Of a stretch of 64,000 nucleotides of DNA, positions 10,129 through 63,803 are shown one piece after another. The notes beneath the pieces are model-generated. The model was not told the DNA's origin. It searched no databases and was given only the letters and a program-made list of their open reading frames with translations. Origin of the DNA: Lichenifustis flavocetrariae (GTDB taxonomy: Bacteria; Pseudomonadota; Alphaproteobacteria; Rhizobiales; Beijerinckiaceae); the NCBI RefSeq assembly GCF_026130545.1, contig NZ_JAMOIM010000014.1, positions 62,001-126,000 on the forward strand, read 5' to 3'. The translations under genes were made by a program, and so were the position numbers. Positions within the stretch are counted from its first letter, which is position 1, and the number at the start of each line of letters is the position of its first letter.

Positions 10129-11775
10129 ATGACCGGATCCCAAAACGGCGCAGCCCTTTCGGAATTGAAGAAAGTGCTTGAAGGCCAAGAACCCGTTTCC
10201 ATAAAGGCGGCCTTTGCGAGCGATCCAGGCCGTTTCGCCAAATATCACGTTCAACTCGACGACCTCTTGTTCGACTTCTCGAAGCACCGGATCGACGATG
10301 CGCTGCTCGGCAAGCTCGTGCAGCTCGCACGGGACAGCGAGGTCGAGGCAAAGCGGGACAAGATGTTCTCCGGCGCGGCCTACAACACCACCGAGCATCG
10401 GCCGGCGCTGCATACGGCGCTGCGCAATTTCTCCGGCGAGCCCATTATGGTCGACGGTGAAGACGTCATGCCGGACGTGATCGCCACGCGCGAGAAGGTG
10501 GCGGCCTTCGCCACGGGCATCCGCGACGGCTCGATCCCGGGCGCAACCGGCAAGACCATTACGGATGTGGTGAATATCGGCATTGGTGGATCGGATCTTG
10601 GGCCCGCCATGGCGGCCCGCGCGCTCACGCCCTTCTCCAGCCCACGCCTGCGCACGCATTTCGTATCGAACGTCGACGGCGCCGATCTCGGCGACACGGT
10701 GGCGGCGCTCGACCCGGCGACGACGCTCTTCATCATCTCCTCGAAGACCTTCACGACGCTGGAAACCATGACCAACGCGCAAAGCGCGCGCGACTGGATC
10801 GTGGCGGGCCTTGGCGAAGAGGCGGTGAAACATCATTTCGCGGCCGTCTCGACCAAACTCGATCTCGTGGCGAAATTCGGCATCGGCAGCGAACGGGTGT
10901 TCGGCTTCAAGGATTGGGTGGGCGGCCGTTATTCCATGTGGTCGAGCATCGGGCTGGCCTTGGTCATCGCCATCGGGCCCGCGCAGTTCGAGCAATTCCT
11001 GCGCGGTGGTTTCGAGATCGACACGCATTTCCGGCAGGCGCCGATCGAGGCGAACATCCCCATGCTGATGGGGCTGCTCGGGGTGCTCTATCGCGACATC
11101 CAGGGTGTCTCGACCCAGGCCGTCATTCCCTATGACCAGCGGCTCGGGCGCTTTCCCGCCTATCTCCAGCAGCTCGATATGGAGAGCAATGGCAAGAGCG
11201 TGCATCTGGACGGCTCACACGTCACCGCGCAGACAGGCCCGATCGTGTGGGGCGAGCCCGGCACCAACGGCCAGCACGCCTTCTTCCAGCTGATCCACCA
11301 GGGCACCGAGATCGTGCCGGTGGATTTCCTCGTGGCGGCGGAGCCGACGCAGGCCGACGCTCATCACCACGACCTGCTGCTGGCCAATTGCTTCGCCCAG
11401 AGCCAGGCCCTCATGCAAGGCCGCGACATCGGCGAGGTCGCGGCGCAACTCGAGAAGGGCGGCATGGCGCCGGACGAGGTGAAACGTCTCGCCCCCCACA
11501 AGGTGTTCTCCGGCGACAGGCCTTCCTCGACCTTCCTGTACCGCCGCCTCGACCCACGCACGCTCGGCCGGCTGATCGCGCTCTATGAGCACCGCGTCTT
11601 CACAATGGCGGCGATCTGGGACACGAACCCATTCGATCAATGGGGTGTCGAACTCGGCAAGGAACTGGCCAGCAAGCTCGTGCCGATCGTCAGCGATGCA
11701 GGAGCCGCGACGGATGGGCTCGACAGTTCCACGGCCGGCCTGGTGGCGCATCGTCGTTCGGTGGCGTCGAAATAA
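10129..11775 (+). CDS. pgi: Glucose-6-phosphate isomerase
   Basis: A 548-residue cytoplasmic enzyme interconverting glucose-6-phosphate and fructose-6-phosphate. Signatures are NIGIGGSDLGPAM, SSKTFTTLETMTNAQSARDW, FKDWVGGRYSMWSSIGL, the family pattern QQLDMESNGKSV and GEPGTNGQHAFFQLIHQGT with the catalytic Glu and His. Length matches E. coli Pgi (549). The ATG at 10129 follows a GAGG site; an upstream in-frame ATG at 10081 would add residues not seen in the family. With zwf about 12.6 kb away it feeds the glucose-6-phosphate node. Confidence 0.97.
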   Translation: MTGSQNGAALSELKKVLEGQEPVSIKAAFASDPGRFAKYHVQLDDLLFDFSKHRIDDALLGKLVQLARDSEVEAKRDKMFSGAAYNTTEHRPALHTALRNFSGEPIMVDGEDVMPDVIATREKVAAFATGIRDGSIPGATGKTITDVVNIGIGGSDLGPAMAARALTPFSSPRLRTHFVSNVDGADLGDTVAALDPATTLFIISSKTFTTLETMTNAQSARDWIVAGLGEEAVKHHFAAVSTKLDLVAKFGIGSERVFGFKDWVGGRYSMWSSIGLALVIAIGPAQFEQFLRGGFEIDTHFRQAPIEANIPMLMGLLGVLYRDIQGVSTQAVIPYDQRLGRFPAYLQQLDMESNGKSVHLDGSHVTAQTGPIVWGEPGTNGQHAFFQLIHQGTEIVPVDFLVAAEPTQADAHHHDLLLANCFAQSQALMQGRDIGEVAAQLEKGGMAPDEVKRLAPHKVFSGDRPSSTFLYRRLDPRTLGRLIALYEHRVFTMAAIWDTNPFDQWGVELGKELASKLVPIVSDAGAATDGLDSSTAGLVAHRRSVASK

Positions 11776-11845
11776 AGCGACCACGACCCGGTCTCGTCGC
11801 ACACTCAAGGCCGGGCCTCATGGAGAAGAGACAGGCGGCATCGCG

Positions 11846-12205
11846 ATGGTGAGATTCCTTGCTGTGATCGCCTTCACGCTGACCGCCGGGGGAGCGCCCG
11901 TCTCGACACTGAAGGACCTCGGTTCGGCCTTCGCATCCTGTACCCGGACACAGGACTATCCGGCCGGATCTGAGATCACGATCCGGCTCAGCCTGAACAG
12001 CCGTGGCGCGATCCTGGGCAAGCCCATGATCACCTATTCACGGCTGATCGGCTCGATGAGCGATCGCAGAGCGTTTGTCGCCGACGTTCTCGACGCGCTT
12101 CGACGCTGCACCCCGGTCAACGTGACCTCGGAATTGGGCCGGGCCATCGCGGGACGGCCTCTGTCCATTCACGTGGTGGGCGGCGCGCACGGTTTGGAGA
12201 TCTGA
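11846..12205 (+). CDS. Small secreted protein with TonB-C-terminal-like fold, function unknown
   Basis: A 119-residue protein with a short signal-like N-terminus (MVRFLAVIAFTLTAGGAPV). The rest follows a pattern common in small alphaproteobacterial secreted proteins related to the TonB/TolA C-terminal domain: a Cys in FASCTRTQDYPAGSEI, a strand ITIRLSLNSRGAILGKP, a second Cys in LRRCTPVN and the terminal AIAGRPLSIHVVGG. The two cysteines could form a disulfide. The role is unknown. It is 70 bases after pgi on the same strand, possibly cotranscribed. Confidence 0.7.
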   Translation: MVRFLAVIAFTLTAGGAPVSTLKDLGSAFASCTRTQDYPAGSEITIRLSLNSRGAILGKPMITYSRLIGSMSDRRAFVADVLDALRRCTPVNVTSELGRAIAGRPLSIHVVGGAHGLEI

Positions 12206-12265
12206 ACTTTCGCCGATGGCCCCTCGCTGTGTCCGAGGCCGGTGCCCAAATCTTTTGCCAATCCC

Positions 12266-12295
12266 TGTCGGCTCCGCCCATAGTCCCTCGTCCTT
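12266..12295 (+). promoter_or_regulatory. ECF-type promoter motif, copy 1 (TGTCGGCTC-N14-CGTCCTT)
   Basis: TGTCGGCTC at 12266-12274 and CGTCCTT at 12289-12295 are separated by 14 bases. The same two blocks with the same spacing recur at 13956-13985. Taking TGTCGG as -35 and CGTC as -10 gives 17 bases between them, the geometry of ECF sigma promoters. ECF42-group promoters are reported with a TGTCGA-like -35, so autoregulation by the adjacent sigma factor is the simplest reading. The implied leader before the ATG at 12315 is very short. Confidence 0.65.
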
Positions 12296-12314
12296 AGACG
12301 AGGAAGGAGCCGCC

Positions 12315-12686
12315 ATGCACTACGCCATCCTCTGCTACAATGACGAAGACGTCGTCTATTCCTGGACCAAGGAGGAGGACGATGCGGTCATGGCGCGGCT
12401 CGGGACCGTACACGAGAGGCTCAAGACCGCCGGTAGACTTGGCCCGGCCGCGCGGCTGCTGCCCACGACCGCCGCGACGACGCTGCGGAAGGCGACCGAG
12501 CCCTTCGTGATCGACGGTCCTTTCGCCGAGACCAAGGAGCAGTTGCTCGGTTTCTACATCGTCGACGTCGAAAGTCTCGATGAAGCGCTCGCCATCGCGC
12601 GCGATCTGGCGGCCGCCAATCCGGGCGGCGCCTACGAGCTCCGGCCTGTGTCGCTCTATCTGCCCGACCCGCGGACGGACCCGTGA
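12315..12686 (+). CDS. YCII-related (DGPF domain) protein
   Basis: A 123-residue YCII/DGPF-fold protein. It opens MHYAILCYNDEDVV, carries the DGPF motif as VIDGPFAETKEQLLGFYIVD and ends ELRPVSLYLPDP. GGAAGGAG lies just before the ATG. Its last bases overlap the sigma factor start (GTGA). DGPF proteins are the standard genomic partner of ECF42 sigma factors, but their biochemical function is unknown. Expected to be cytoplasmic. Confidence 0.92.
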   Translation: MHYAILCYNDEDVVYSWTKEEDDAVMARLGTVHERLKTAGRLGPAARLLPTTAATTLRKATEPFVIDGPFAETKEQLLGFYIVDVESLDEALAIARDLAAANPGGAYELRPVSLYLPDPRTDP

Positions 12687-13936
12687 CCGAGGCGGCTTGG
12701 ATCGCCGGGGCACTCACGGCGGCCCGCCCCCAGGTGATCGGCGCCCTGCTCCGCTATTTCCGTGATCTCGACACGGCCGAGGAAGCCTTCCAGGAGGCCT
12801 GCCTGCGGGCGCTCAAGCATTGGCCGGAAAACGGACCGCCGCGCGATCCCGCCGCCTGGCTCATTCTGGTCGGCCGCAATGCCGCGCTCGATGGCGTGCG
12901 ACGGCAGGCCAGGCATACGGCGCTGCCACCCGACGAGATGATCTCCGACCTCGACGACAGCGAGGTTCCACTCGTTGAACGGCTCGATGGCGCGCATTAC
13001 CGCGACGATGTCCTGCGCCTCTTGTTCATCTGCTGCCATCCGGATCTGCCGCACACCCAGCAGATCGCGCTCGCGCTGCGCATTGTCTCGGGACTGACAG
13101 TCGCGCAGATCGCCCGCGCTTTCCTGATCGGCGACGCCGCCATGGAGCAGCGCATCACCCGCGCCAAGGCCAGGGTCGCTAAGGCCGAGGTGCCATTTGA
13201 GGCTCCCGGTGCCATCGAGCGCGCGGAACGCCTCGCCGCCGTCGCGGCCATGATCTATCTCGTGTTCAACGAAGGGTATTCTGCAGGCGACGCCGTGATG
13301 CGCGCTCACCTTTGTGGTGAGGCGATCCGGCTCGGGCGCCTGCTCCTGCGGCTGTTCCCGGCAGAGCCGGAGATCATGGGACTGACAGCGCTCATGCTGC
13401 TGCAGCACGCTCGTTCCCCCGCCCGCTTCGACCCCGATGGCGCCATCATCCTGCTCGACGACCAGAATCGCCGGCTGTGGGATGTCCAGCGCATCGCCGA
13501 GGGCTTGGCGCTGATCGACAAGGCAATGCGCCATCGCCGTCCCGGCGCCTACCAGATTCAGGCGGCACTCGCCGCGACCCACGCCCGCGCGGCACGGGCC
13601 GAGGACACCGACTGGGCCCAAATGGACGCGCTCTATGCGGCCCTCGAACGCCTGCAGCCCTCGCCCGTGGTGACGCTCAATAGGGCGGTCGCGGTGCATA
13701 AACTGTCGGGCGCGGCGGCGGCCTTAGCTCTCATCGCTCCATTGGAGCCGCGGCTTTCGGCCTACTTCCATTTCTTTGGCGCCAAGGGTGCCTTCCTGCG
13801 AGAACTCGGCCGCATGGCCGAGGCGCAGGTGGCTTTCGATCGTGCCATCGCGCTCGCCCGCTCTCCGGCCGAGGCGTCCCATATCCGCCAGCATCTCGAC
13901 CGTCTGACGCAGGACAGCGTTCCGGCGCCGCCCTAA
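12683..13936 (+). CDS. ECF42-type RNA polymerase sigma factor with C-terminal TPR-like extension
   Basis: A 417-residue sigma factor, twice the usual ECF length. Region 2 is at about residues 12-80 (LLRYFRDLDTAEEAFQEACL, then WLILVGRNAALDGVRRQ); region 4 at about 110-165 (LALRIVSGLTVAQIARAFLI, then MEQRITRAKARV). The remaining 230 residues form the alpha-helical TPR-like extension typical of COG4941/ECF42, with FNEGYSAGD and LNRAVAVHKLSG segments. No anti-sigma gene is adjacent; in ECF42 factors the extension is thought to do the control. The GTG start overlaps the DGPF gene stop. Confidence 0.92.
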   Translation: MTEAAWIAGALTAARPQVIGALLRYFRDLDTAEEAFQEACLRALKHWPENGPPRDPAAWLILVGRNAALDGVRRQARHTALPPDEMISDLDDSEVPLVERLDGAHYRDDVLRLLFICCHPDLPHTQQIALALRIVSGLTVAQIARAFLIGDAAMEQRITRAKARVAKAEVPFEAPGAIERAERLAAVAAMIYLVFNEGYSAGDAVMRAHLCGEAIRLGRLLLRLFPAEPEIMGLTALMLLQHARSPARFDPDGAIILLDDQNRRLWDVQRIAEGLALIDKAMRHRRPGAYQIQAALAATHARAARAEDTDWAQMDALYAALERLQPSPVVTLNRAVAVHKLSGAAAALALIAPLEPRLSAYFHFFGAKGAFLRELGRMAEAQVAFDRAIALARSPAEASHIRQHLDRLTQDSVPAPP

Positions 13937-13955
13937 AAAAAATTCCGCATGCCTT

Positions 13956-13985
13956 GTCGGCTCACGATCAACCGTCGCGTCCTTG
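13956..13985 (+). promoter_or_regulatory. ECF-type promoter motif, copy 2 (TGTCGGCTC-N14-CGTCCTT)
   Basis: TGTCGGCTC at 13956-13964 and CGTCCTT at 13979-13985 repeat the two blocks found ahead of the DGPF gene, with identical 14-base spacing but unrelated spacer sequence. It sits 46 bases before the VOC gene ATG at 14031, just after the sigma factor stop. It would place the downstream VOC and SRPBCC genes in the sigma factor's own regulon. Confidence 0.65.
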
Positions 13986-14030
13986 GCATAGGATCGGCCG
14001 ATGATGGCCAGCCTAGCCGAGGAGGACAGC

Positions 14031-14453
14031 ATGACAGACACGACCCAACCCGCCGCCATCGAGACAAAGGGCGGCGTCATCGCCTATCTCAGCCTTGATG
14101 GGGCGCTCGCAGCCGCAGAATTCTACAAAAAGGCATTCGGGGCCGAAGTCGCGATGGCCATGCCGGCCGACGAGAAGGGGCGGACAATGCATGTCCATCT
14201 CCATATCAACGGCAGCTCGGTGATGTTGGGCGACTGTTTTCCCGAACACGGCCACGGCTATGTTCCGGCCCAAGGCTTCAACCTGCTGCTTCCGGTCAAG
14301 GACATCGAGGCCTCGTGGCAACGCGCCGTCGATGCGGGTGCGACCGTCGTGATGCCGCTCACCGATATGTTCTGGGGCGACCGCTACGGCCAATTGCGTG
14401 ACCCCTTCGGTGTCACCTGGGCCATGAATGCGCCGATCACGCGCGGCGCCTGA
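14031..14453 (+). CDS. VOC-family protein (PhnB-like)
   Basis: A 140-residue vicinal-oxygen-chelate fold protein. The paired beta-alpha-beta units are visible: YLSLDGALAAAEFYKKAFGA then HVHLHINGSSVMLGDCFPEH, and FNLLLPVKDIEASWQRAVDA then WGDRYGQLRDPFGVTWAM. This is the PhnB/DUF1428-like type annotated as glyoxalase or bleomycin-resistance-like, but no substrate follows from sequence. AGGAGG precedes the ATG at 14031. It lies immediately downstream of promoter motif copy 2. Confidence 0.88.
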   Translation: MTDTTQPAAIETKGGVIAYLSLDGALAAAEFYKKAFGAEVAMAMPADEKGRTMHVHLHINGSSVMLGDCFPEHGHGYVPAQGFNLLLPVKDIEASWQRAVDAGATVVMPLTDMFWGDRYGQLRDPFGVTWAMNAPITRGA

Positions 14454-14575
14454 GATCAATTTCCGCTTCGCCAGCTTGAAGCTCTCGCGGCCATGTGTCC
14501 GCGCGGATGGCGAAGGTCGAGCCGGACAATCGACCGAGTCGCCAGGAGCTGGGAACGCCTCACGGGGAGGATATC

Positions 14576-15058
14576 GTGGAGACGATCAGGCCGTTTTTGT
14601 GGTTCGACGGTAAAGCCCAGGAGGCCGTCGACTTTTATGTGTCGATTTTTCCTGGCAGCAAGATCCTTGAAACCGTTTCGGGACCGGAAGGGTCGGTCGT
14701 TGGGCTGACGTTCCAGTTGCTCGACCGCACGTTCATGGCGCTGAACGGAGGGCCGCATTTCACATTCACGCCGGCCATTTCGATGTTCGTGCCCTGCCAG
14801 ACACAGGACGAAATCGATACGCTCTGGGTCAAGCTCACTGAGGGCGGCACCGCGCAGCAATGCGGCTGGTTGACCGATCGCTACGGTGTGTCATGGCAGA
14901 TCGTCCCCACGATTTTGGGCGACCTCCTCAAGGACCAGGATCGCCAGCGGGCAAACCGGGTCTTCAAGGCGATGATGGCCATGCGTAAGCTGGATATCGC
15001 TTTATTGCAGAACGCCCATGGGCAGGATGAAGCTGTGTTTTCGCAGGACGGCGGATAA
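14576..15058 (+). CDS. VOC-family protein (3-demethylubiquinone-methyltransferase-like / PhnB)
   Basis: A 160-residue VOC protein of the 3-dmu-9_3-mt type: IRPFLWFDGKAQEAVDFYVS, SKILETVSGPEG, MALNGGPHFTFTPAISMFV, then GGTAQQCGWLTDRYGVSWQI and a C-terminal helix FKAMMAMRKLDIALL. GTG at 14576 follows GGGGAGG with good spacing. Members of this family are frequent in ECF41/ECF42 clusters, and their reactions are uncharacterised. It is 122 bases after the first VOC gene. Confidence 0.88.
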   Translation: METIRPFLWFDGKAQEAVDFYVSIFPGSKILETVSGPEGSVVGLTFQLLDRTFMALNGGPHFTFTPAISMFVPCQTQDEIDTLWVKLTEGGTAQQCGWLTDRYGVSWQIVPTILGDLLKDQDRQRANRVFKAMMAMRKLDIALLQNAHGQDEAVFSQDGG

Positions 15059-15121
15059 TCCCAGGCCGCGCAAACTGGCGCTTGGCACGCTGTTTCCTTT
15101 TCGCCCCAACCGGAGTTGCTC

Positions 15122-15601
15122 ATGTCGACAGAAGAACCGACCCTTAACCGCGACCTCGTCCTCACCCGATTGATCGACGCGCCGCGTGCCAAATTGTTTC
15201 ACGCCTGGACCGATCCTGCGTTGCTGAAACAATGGTTTGCCCCGAAACCCTATATGACGGTCGAAGCCGAGCTCGATGTGCGGGCGGGGGGATCAAGCCG
15301 CATCGTCATGCGAAGCCCGGACGGACAGGATATGCCAATGCATGGCGTGTATCTTGAGGTCGAACCCGACGCGCGGCTCGTCTTTACCGATGCCTACGTC
15401 CGGGCCTGGGAACCGTCGCAAAAGCCCTTCATGACCGTCGTCCTGACCTTCGAGGACGAAGACGGCAAGACGCGCTACACGGCGCGCGTGCGGCACTGGA
15501 CCAACGCCGACCGAGAGGCCCACGAGGCGATGGGATTTCACCAGGGCTGGGGCCAGTGCACGGATCAACTCGCCACGCTGGTCAGCGGAGGCGCGGTCTG
15601 A
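15122..15601 (+). CDS. SRPBCC (AHSA1) domain protein
   Basis: A 159-residue START/AHSA1-fold protein: LVLTRLIDAPRAKLFHAWTD, LLKQWFAPKPYMTVEAELDV, then GVYLEVEPDARLVFTDAY, and a C-terminal helix GFHQGWGQCTDQLATLV. Such proteins bind hydrophobic ligands; the ligand is unknown. The ATG at 15122 is preceded by CGGAG. It closes the ECF42-linked cluster, where AHSA1 proteins are common companions of DGPF and VOC genes. Confidence 0.88.
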   Translation: MSTEEPTLNRDLVLTRLIDAPRAKLFHAWTDPALLKQWFAPKPYMTVEAELDVRAGGSSRIVMRSPDGQDMPMHGVYLEVEPDARLVFTDAYVRAWEPSQKPFMTVVLTFEDEDGKTRYTARVRHWTNADREAHEAMGFHQGWGQCTDQLATLVSGGAV

Positions 15602-15634
15602 TCCGCGCTGCGGATCAAGGTCTTCCCAGCTACC

Positions 15635-15660
15635 GTGGCACCTCAGTCATGAGGTGCCAC
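15635..15660. terminator. Hairpin between convergent SRPBCC and DEAD-helicase genes
   Basis: GTGGCACCTCA (15635-15645) pairs perfectly with TGAGGTGCCAC (15650-15660): an 11-bp stem with a GTCA tetraloop. It fills the 61-base gap between two convergent stops, so it probably serves both. No T-tract follows on either strand. Confidence 0.6.
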
Positions 15661-15662
15661 CA

Positions 15663-17114
<1,452 letters not shown>

Positions 17115-63218: not shown

Positions 63219-63320
63219 CTCATTCCGGGGCGCCGAAGGCGAACCCGAAGCGGTGTGCTCAAGTGATCGCCGCCGAGGCACCCCGGTTCCGGATCTCCGC
63301 TGCGCTGCGTCCGGAATGAG
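63219..63320. repeat. Palindromic intergenic repeat, copy 1 (CTCATTCCGG...CCGGAATGAG)
   Basis: A unit of about 102 bases bounded by CTCATTCCGG and CCGGAATGAG. The right 45 bases (from CCCCGGTTCCGG through GGAATGAGGA) are identical to copy 2 at 63672-63774; the left part is similar but diverged. The terminal inverted repeats allow a long hairpin. It lies between convergent genes and may also end their transcripts. Confidence 0.85.
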
Positions 63321-63326
63321 GATGGT

Positions 63327-63614
63327 TCAGTTGTTGAGCGTGTGAAACAGGTCGGCCCAGCCTGGATTCACCGCCTCTATCAGAGCGATCTTCCAATCAC
63401 GACGCCACTTCTTCAGCTGCTTTTCCCGGGCGATAGCATCGACGATGCGCTCATGATCCTCCATCCAGACAAGCCGATGCACACCATAGCGCGCCGAGAA
63501 TCCCGGCGTGACGCCGCTCTTGTGCTCGACGATGCGACGCCCGAGATCCCGTGTGACGCCAAGGTACAACGTCCCGTAGGGCCGGCTCGACAGCAAACAG
63601 ACGTGGCACGGCAT
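63327..63614 (-). CDS. GIY-YIG nuclease superfamily protein
   Basis: A 95-residue single-domain protein of the YhbQ/UPF0213 type. The GIY-YIG core shows as VCLLSSRPYGTLYLGVTRDL, RRIVEHKSGVTPGFSARYGV, the metal-ligand Glu in VDAIAREKQLKKWRRDWKI and a terminal NPGWADLF. The two signature tyrosine-glycine elements are partly substituted, as is usual here (LSSRPYGTLYLG). It is flanked on both sides, within about 60 bases, by copies of one palindromic repeat. Confidence 0.9.
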   Translation of the reverse strand: MPCHVCLLSSRPYGTLYLGVTRDLGRRIVEHKSGVTPGFSARYGVHRLVWMEDHERIVDAIAREKQLKKWRRDWKIALIEAVNPGWADLFHTLNN

Positions 63615-63671: not shown

Positions 63672-63774
63672 CTCATTCCGGGGCGGCGCAGCCGAACCCG
63701 GAACCGGTGTGCTCCAGCGTCCAACGCCGAAGCTCCCCGGTTCCGGATCTCCGCTGCGCTGCGTCCGGAATGAG
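63672..63774. repeat. Palindromic intergenic repeat, copy 2 (CTCATTCCGG...CCGGAATGAG)
   Basis: Second copy of the 63219-63320 unit in the same orientation. It is on the other side of the GIY-YIG gene, 57 bases before its start. Same terminal inverted repeats, and identical right half. Confidence 0.85.
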
Positions 63775-63803
63775 GACGGTTCAGTGGCACGGAGGAACTG
63801 CGG

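Follow-up and report, generated by a model that had tools for sequence, protein, structure and literature searches.

Two promoters of ECF42 type were identified in the window (the whole stretch of 64,000 nucleotides of Lichenifustis flavocetrariae DNA that was analyzed), and based on their sequence both are very probably recognized by RNA polymerase bound to the sigma factor whose gene lies between the two, which we take to be an ECF42 sigma factor. The two copies are unequal in that the copy ahead of the sigma operon has an extra -10-like element, the hexamer CATAGT, in its spacer. This hexamer is probably a weak housekeeping promoter, which would provide a basal supply of sigma and compete for the same stretch of DNA. 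That the two copies differ in make-up was missed by the preliminary description of this DNA; it is new here and is worth following. The following features were assigned at the locus.

12248 to 12256, forward strand: A/T-rich tract 5' of the first ECF42 -35, putatively UP-element-like
12255 to 12260, forward strand: TTGCCA, a weak candidate for a -35 partner of CATAGT, with an 18-base spacer
12266 to 12295, forward strand: predicted ECF42-type promoter ahead of the YCII-sigma operon, with -35 TGTCGG (12266-12271), a 17-base spacer and -10 CGTC(CTT) (12289-12295)
12279 to 12284, forward strand: CATAGT, sigma70-type -10-like hexamer in the ECF42 spacer, conserved at one offset in sigma-operon promoters
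12315 to 12686, forward strand: gene for a YCII-related (DGPF) protein (PF03795, E=3.8e-21)
12683 to 13936, forward strand: gene for the ECF42 sigma factor, with a helical C-terminal extension (PF04542, PF08281, PF20239, the last being DUF6596)
13935 to 13944, forward strand: A-tract 5' of the second ECF42 -35, putatively UP-element-like
13955 to 13984, forward strand: second predicted ECF42-type promoter, with -35 TGTCGG (13955-13960) and -10 CGTC(CTT) (13978-13984)
14031 to 14453, forward strand: gene for a VOC/glyoxalase-fold protein (PF00903, E=1.3e-16, searched from 14001)
14576 to 15058, forward strand: second VOC-type gene, presumably in the same operon (PF06983, E=1e-38)
15122 to 15601, forward strand: SRPBCC (AHSA1) gene, presumably in the same operon (PF08327, E=1.1e-35)

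The A/T tracts are presumably UP-element-like, and the spacer hexamer is likewise assumed to be a -10 element. The names "DGPF", "SRPBCC" and, for the second VOC protein, "PhnB-like" are ones which we take to apply to these cluster proteins. The YCII gene lies directly upstream of the sigma gene, and the stop of the former overlaps the start of the latter by 4 bases. Pfam names for the sigma neighbors were phosphoglucose isomerase (PGI), YCII, VOC, VOC-type PF06983, AHSA1 and DEAD-box helicase, the PGI and helicase genes forming the flanks of the cluster. No Pfam family matched a 119-residue frame at 11846-12205, between the PGI gene and the cluster. The longest frame of the first VOC gene runs from 14001, and the start at 14031 is preceded by GAGGAGG.

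The sigma protein has 417 residues and includes sigma2 and sigma4 regions (PF04542, E=9.3e-14; PF08281, E=1.7e-7) as well as a C-terminal extension of about 200 residues with a PF20239 match at residues 183-282 (E=5.8e-34), the only one found in the 7.5 Mb genome of this organism. In a structure model made with 24 aligned relatives (mean pLDDT 68.7) much of the sigma part was of low confidence and the all-helical C-terminal half was better: residues 177-412 are helices, and helix pairs cover 181-410 with block pLDDT values of 62-95. When the model was submitted to Foldseek, many of the 50 matches listed were TPR proteins and some were M. tuberculosis ECF sigmas; the one listed match with E<=0.001 was Tom70 (E=3.9e-4, TM 0.31-0.34). 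No Pfam TPR model matched the extension. The C-terminal extension of other ECF42 sigmas (Streptomyces venezuelae Sven_0747 and others, Pseudomonas putida ECF-10) is described as TPR-rich in PMC8999054. ECF42 sigmas have no identifiable anti-sigma nearby, according to PMC6180224, and it has been proposed in print that the activating signal acts via the C-terminal extension. Residues 226-334 of the sigma, which belong to the extension, were also matched at 48-49% identity on many plasmids of Klebsiella and E. coli (H34-H59; 60 of the 251 records were listed). The plasmid pieces are often annotated as DUF6596, the sigma regions fall outside the match, and such a piece looks like a remnant.

The window contains exactly two occurrences of TGTCGGCTC-N14-CGTCCTT, both on the forward strand, in the gaps preceding the YCII gene (12266-12295) and the first VOC gene (13955-13984). 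The preliminary description had placed the first copy correctly and the second one base too far to the right, at 13956. With up to three mismatches allowed, 6 matches were found in the window against 1.13 expected from shuffles. By itself an exact repeat of a gapped word is unremarkable, since 22 words of the form 9-N14-7 repeat exactly on the forward strand of the window. Among the 20 of these that were listed, 13 came from a local repeat at 63281-63293, one was this motif, and six were other pairs outside the local repeat, which would suit a coincidence or what is left of a local duplication, as would the fortuitous agreement of the final three bases of the first block. Such an origin is nevertheless highly improbable: spacers and flanks differ between the copies, and many genera retain TGTCGG-N17-CGTC at both positions. 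The preliminary description, which argued for selection and not simple duplication, had stressed the identity of the 9- and 7-base blocks and of the 14-base spacing. The repeat is exact as claimed, but the conserved bases are TGTCGG-N17-CGTC(C/T)T and the shared "CTC" is a coincidence. Exact identity was rejected as evidence, as "CTC" varies freely in relatives and other gapped words repeat. Direct repeats were also seen at 63219-63331 and 63672-63785, separated by about 454 bases. Their identity is 88% over 88 nt and 90% over 29 nt, and the second copy also has an inverted repeat.

The motif is beyond chance because it is conserved and position-fixed, not because the two copies are identical. 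Conservation was scored in 146 loci, comprising the best 80 of at least 549 sigma relatives, 65 loci from a class-level sample of 289 genomes, 47 of which carry the family, and the window; the two collections share some genomes, e.g. L029 and L123. The near set consisted of 96 loci with a sigma at least 60% identical to that of the window, and the far set of 50 alphaproteobacterial loci below 60%. Promoter segments were distinct in 82 of 83 near upstream, 60 of 61 near downstream and 25 of 26 far upstream cases, the far duplicate being L151, for which the same sigma was taken as in L111, so that one upstream row was counted twice. Among the best 80 of the at least 549 relatives, TGTCG(A/G)-N17-CGTC gave 141 forward and 14 reverse matches, while other spacers from 8 to 25 gave 3-16 forward and 0-17 reverse in the same relatives.

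Over the 146 loci the motif was found upstream in 109 (of 142 with sufficient sequence) and immediately behind the sigma gene in 67 (of 143 with sufficient sequence). In the near set it stands ahead of the YCII gene in 83/96 loci, just after the sigma gene in 61/96 and at both places in 56/96. Thirteen near loci have no exact motif ahead of YCII: two end at a contig end (L119, L141), six show a one-mismatch motif by eye (L041, L057, L071, L084, L087, L100) and five lack it. Just after the sigma gene, 35/96 near loci are without the motif, including L027, which is cut off. The far set has it upstream in 26/50 loci (25 distinct) and downstream in 6/50, leaving 24 and 44 loci, respectively, without it. 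In a further sample from the same order the motif was found ahead of YCII in 75/94 loci. This order sample comprised 94 loci, including that of the window, with a sigma identity of at least 58%, and was not selected for the hexamer; it was drawn from the matches listed (155 of the 397 genomes had one), four candidates being scored for each genome and the partial match G660 being excluded.

The last base of the -35 element is G in all 83 near upstream motifs (TGTCGG) and A in 21 of the 26 far ones (TGTCGA; one row twice). The "TGTCGA" box given in the preliminary description therefore fits the more distant ECF42 loci and not the near clade. Far loci with TGTCGA, e.g. L108, L131 and L153, may indicate a specificity split within ECF42. 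An A/T tract lies 5' of the -35 in both promoter classes, T being the commonest base at -15 to -10 of the upstream promoters (71 aligned loci) and A being present at -16 to -14 in about 80% of the downstream promoters (50 aligned loci). Downstream promoters mostly continue as CGTCCTTGG.

Equivalent promoters have been mapped in Sinorhizobium meliloti, whose ECF42 sigma RpoE10 is encoded behind the YCII gene SMc01151 (PMC6180224); motif, spacing, layout and kind of target were thus already known. According to that paper, TGTCGG-N17-CGTCCTT stands ahead of SMc01149 (Table 1), the start of which was found by RNA-seq and 5'-RACE and is the 13th base if the first C of CGTC is counted as 1. TGTCGG-N17-CGTC is also present ahead of the YCII gene and of SMb20475 (PMC6180224). 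Overexpression of RpoE10 raised SMc01149, SMc01148, SMb20475 and SMb20474; the YCII gene did not rise, and its motif overlaps a putative start, per the authors (PMC6180224). S. meliloti is like the window in having the YCII gene, the sigma gene and, after them by locus number, genes for a hydrophobic-ligand-binding and a glyoxalase-like protein, in having TGTCGG-N17-CGTC ahead of both YCII and a target (SMc01149), and in carrying CGTCCTTGG at SMc01149, as at 13978 in the window. The two differ in the kind and order of target genes, and S. meliloti adds a target operon on pSymB.

A TGTCG[A/G]-N17-CGTC promoter of ECF42 type is thus present at the window locus and matches the mapped S. meliloti promoters, and the earlier assignment of the motif to an ECF42 sigma holds, given its conservation in relatives and these counterparts (PMC6180224). 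By analogy, transcripts in the organism itself are predicted to start near 12301 and 13990. The first promoter would stand ahead of the YCII/DGPF-sigma operon, and the second would drive VOC-VOC-SRPBCC, the last two genes via presumed cotranscription. The earlier claim that the sigma drives all three is borne out insofar as the second copy precedes the next gene; the reach to the second VOC and SRPBCC genes is read from spacing only. An autoregulated sigma had also been claimed. The motif is kept ahead of YCII-sigma in both the near set and the order sample, but autoregulation is not established, because the YCII gene stayed flat on RpoE10 overexpression in S. meliloti (PMC6180224), and by this analogy the first copy may possibly be no active autoregulatory promoter.

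Behind the second promoter the genes vary. In the near set (n=61), BLAST against the window proteins classed the gene behind the downstream motif as VOC in 27 cases, SRPBCC in 17 and YCII in 2, with 15 unmatched, and five of these 15 proteins gave SnoaL_3 (twice), DUF899, Polyketide_cyc2 and DoxX_2 in Pfam. On this sequence comparison, the second promoter slot is constant while the small-protein gene behind it changes.

A clear wider regulon was not found by the whole-genome scan that the preliminary description had called for: TGTCGG-N17-CGTC matched 26 times in the organism's own genome and its reversed control 16 times. Besides the two cluster sites there were 24 matches, 19 of them inside frames of at least 150 codons and five outside such frames (L005, L013, L015, L016, L018). 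Five of the 26 matches continue as CGTC(C/T)T, namely the two cluster sites, two within frames of 1008 and 509 codons, and L016 (contig C117), which lies 59 bases ahead of a 126-codon frame. With the pattern TGTCG-N18-CGTC(C/T)T there were 9 matches, and 5 with its control. A wide regulon was rejected for this genome, since outside the cluster and apart from L016 each match either does not continue as CGTC(C/T)T or sits within a long frame.

The spacer hexamer was examined at offsets 13-18, counted with the T of TGTCGG as 0. The pattern.AT..T was found there in 51/83 near upstream, 0/61 near downstream and 0/26 far upstream promoters, and the weaker xAxxxT in 53/83, 0/61 and 5/26, respectively. 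The form.ATA.T occurs at offset 13 in 46/83 near upstream promoters (in 6 at the next best offset). Taking one locus per cluster of sigma identity, the hexamer was present upstream in 34/56 versus downstream in 0/43 at 90%, in 23/40 versus 0/31 at 80%, and in 9/21 versus 0/20 at 75% (p=0.0013). The order sample gave.ATA.T in 29/75 upstream promoters, with absence in 46/75; among representatives below 70% YCII identity the count was 5/18. The looser ...A.T was seen in 46/75 upstream promoters of this sample, against 1/61 near downstream promoters, and when four segments shared with the near set were removed,.ATA.T remained in 27/71 and ...A.T in 43/71. At offset 13 the mean number of matches to TATAAT was 2.68 for the first upstream set and 3.08 for the second, against 0.85 for the downstream promoters and at most 1.65 elsewhere in the spacer. 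A search of 397 genomes of the order with the combined pattern TGTCGG-N8-ATANT-N4-CGTC(C/T)T yielded 28 matches, which are spread over 27 genomes and include that of the window; all 28 are followed by a YCII gene, and no reversed-control hit was found among the matches listed. Based on the near-set and order-sample counts the hexamer is real, patchy and, in the sets examined, specific to the sigma operon.

A housekeeping transcript would be predicted to start at about 12290-12292, inside the ECF42 -10 and about 10 bases before the ECF42 start, and two polymerases would therefore exclude each other. There is about an even chance that, in a large alphaproteobacterial clade, the sigma's own promoter is composite, with a housekeeping -10 in the 17-base ECF42 spacer, and the target promoters are pure ECF42. 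The housekeeping element would then provide basal sigma, and the sigma's own holoenzyme would replace, boost or block the housekeeping one, as a limiter on autoregulation. Streptomyces coelicolor sigma-E, for which HrdB motifs overlap its own at the target genes accB and accA2 (PMC10771440), is alike in that ECF and housekeeping elements share the same DNA and the polymerases would exclude each other; it differs in being another sigma in another organism, with the overlap at target genes instead of at the sigma's own operon. A partial search of the literature, which does not show absence from print, found no description of an interleaved promoter at an ECF42 operon.

A -35 partner for the hexamer was less evident. 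TTGCCA-N18-CATAGT (12255-12284) is the one sigma70-like site in 11700-15700, and alone it is no more than chance, because shuffles average 0.7. In the raw near set a partner with at least 4/6 matches was present at 34/51 hexamer loci versus 7/32 others, and at 15/61 downstream promoters. Below 90% identity the counts were 19/34 versus 7/22 (p=0.1), and no association with the hexamer was seen below 80% identity (10/23 versus 7/17, p=1) or in the order sample (10/29 versus 15/46). A conserved -35 partner was not supported, its association being lost after dereplication and absent in the order sample.

This result would suit a different reading, that the conserved hexamer is the binding site of a separate regulator and no -10 element at all. 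We regard it as rather unlikely, for the most kept hexamer positions are A2, T3, A4 and T6 and position 5 is free, as suits a -10 element, and the mean TATAAT matches peak at just this offset. Similarly doubtful is the possibility that only the downstream copy is a real ECF42 promoter, the YCII-sigma operon being transcribed by the housekeeping polymerase, with the ECF42 polymerase silent or blocking there. In its favor are the YCII gene of S. meliloti, which stayed the same when RpoE10 was overexpressed and whose motif overlaps the putative start (PMC6180224), the -10-like hexamer in the spacer of the sigma-operon copy and not of the target copy, and a precedent in S. coelicolor, where sigma-E seems to act as a repressor of genes at which HrdB motifs overlap those of sigma-E (PMC10771440). 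Against it, the ECF42 motif is kept more often ahead of YCII than downstream (83 versus 61 of 96) and is also kept ahead of YCII in the 32 near loci which have no hexamer. The S. meliloti YCII promoter itself has no hexamer at that place, the printed spacer giving 2/6 matches, so that the S. meliloti YCII result is not explained by the hexamer, which was rejected as the cause of the missing autoregulation in that organism.

The promoter pair itself is one further genomic example of a regulon type that has been mapped in S. meliloti. Of more use is the comparison, which gives a precise motif for ECF42 promoters in this clade, TGTCGG-N17-CGTC(C/T)T preceded by an A/T tract. The possible two-in-one promoter of the sigma operon offers a testable idea of how the basal level of a sigma factor with no known anti-sigma may be set.
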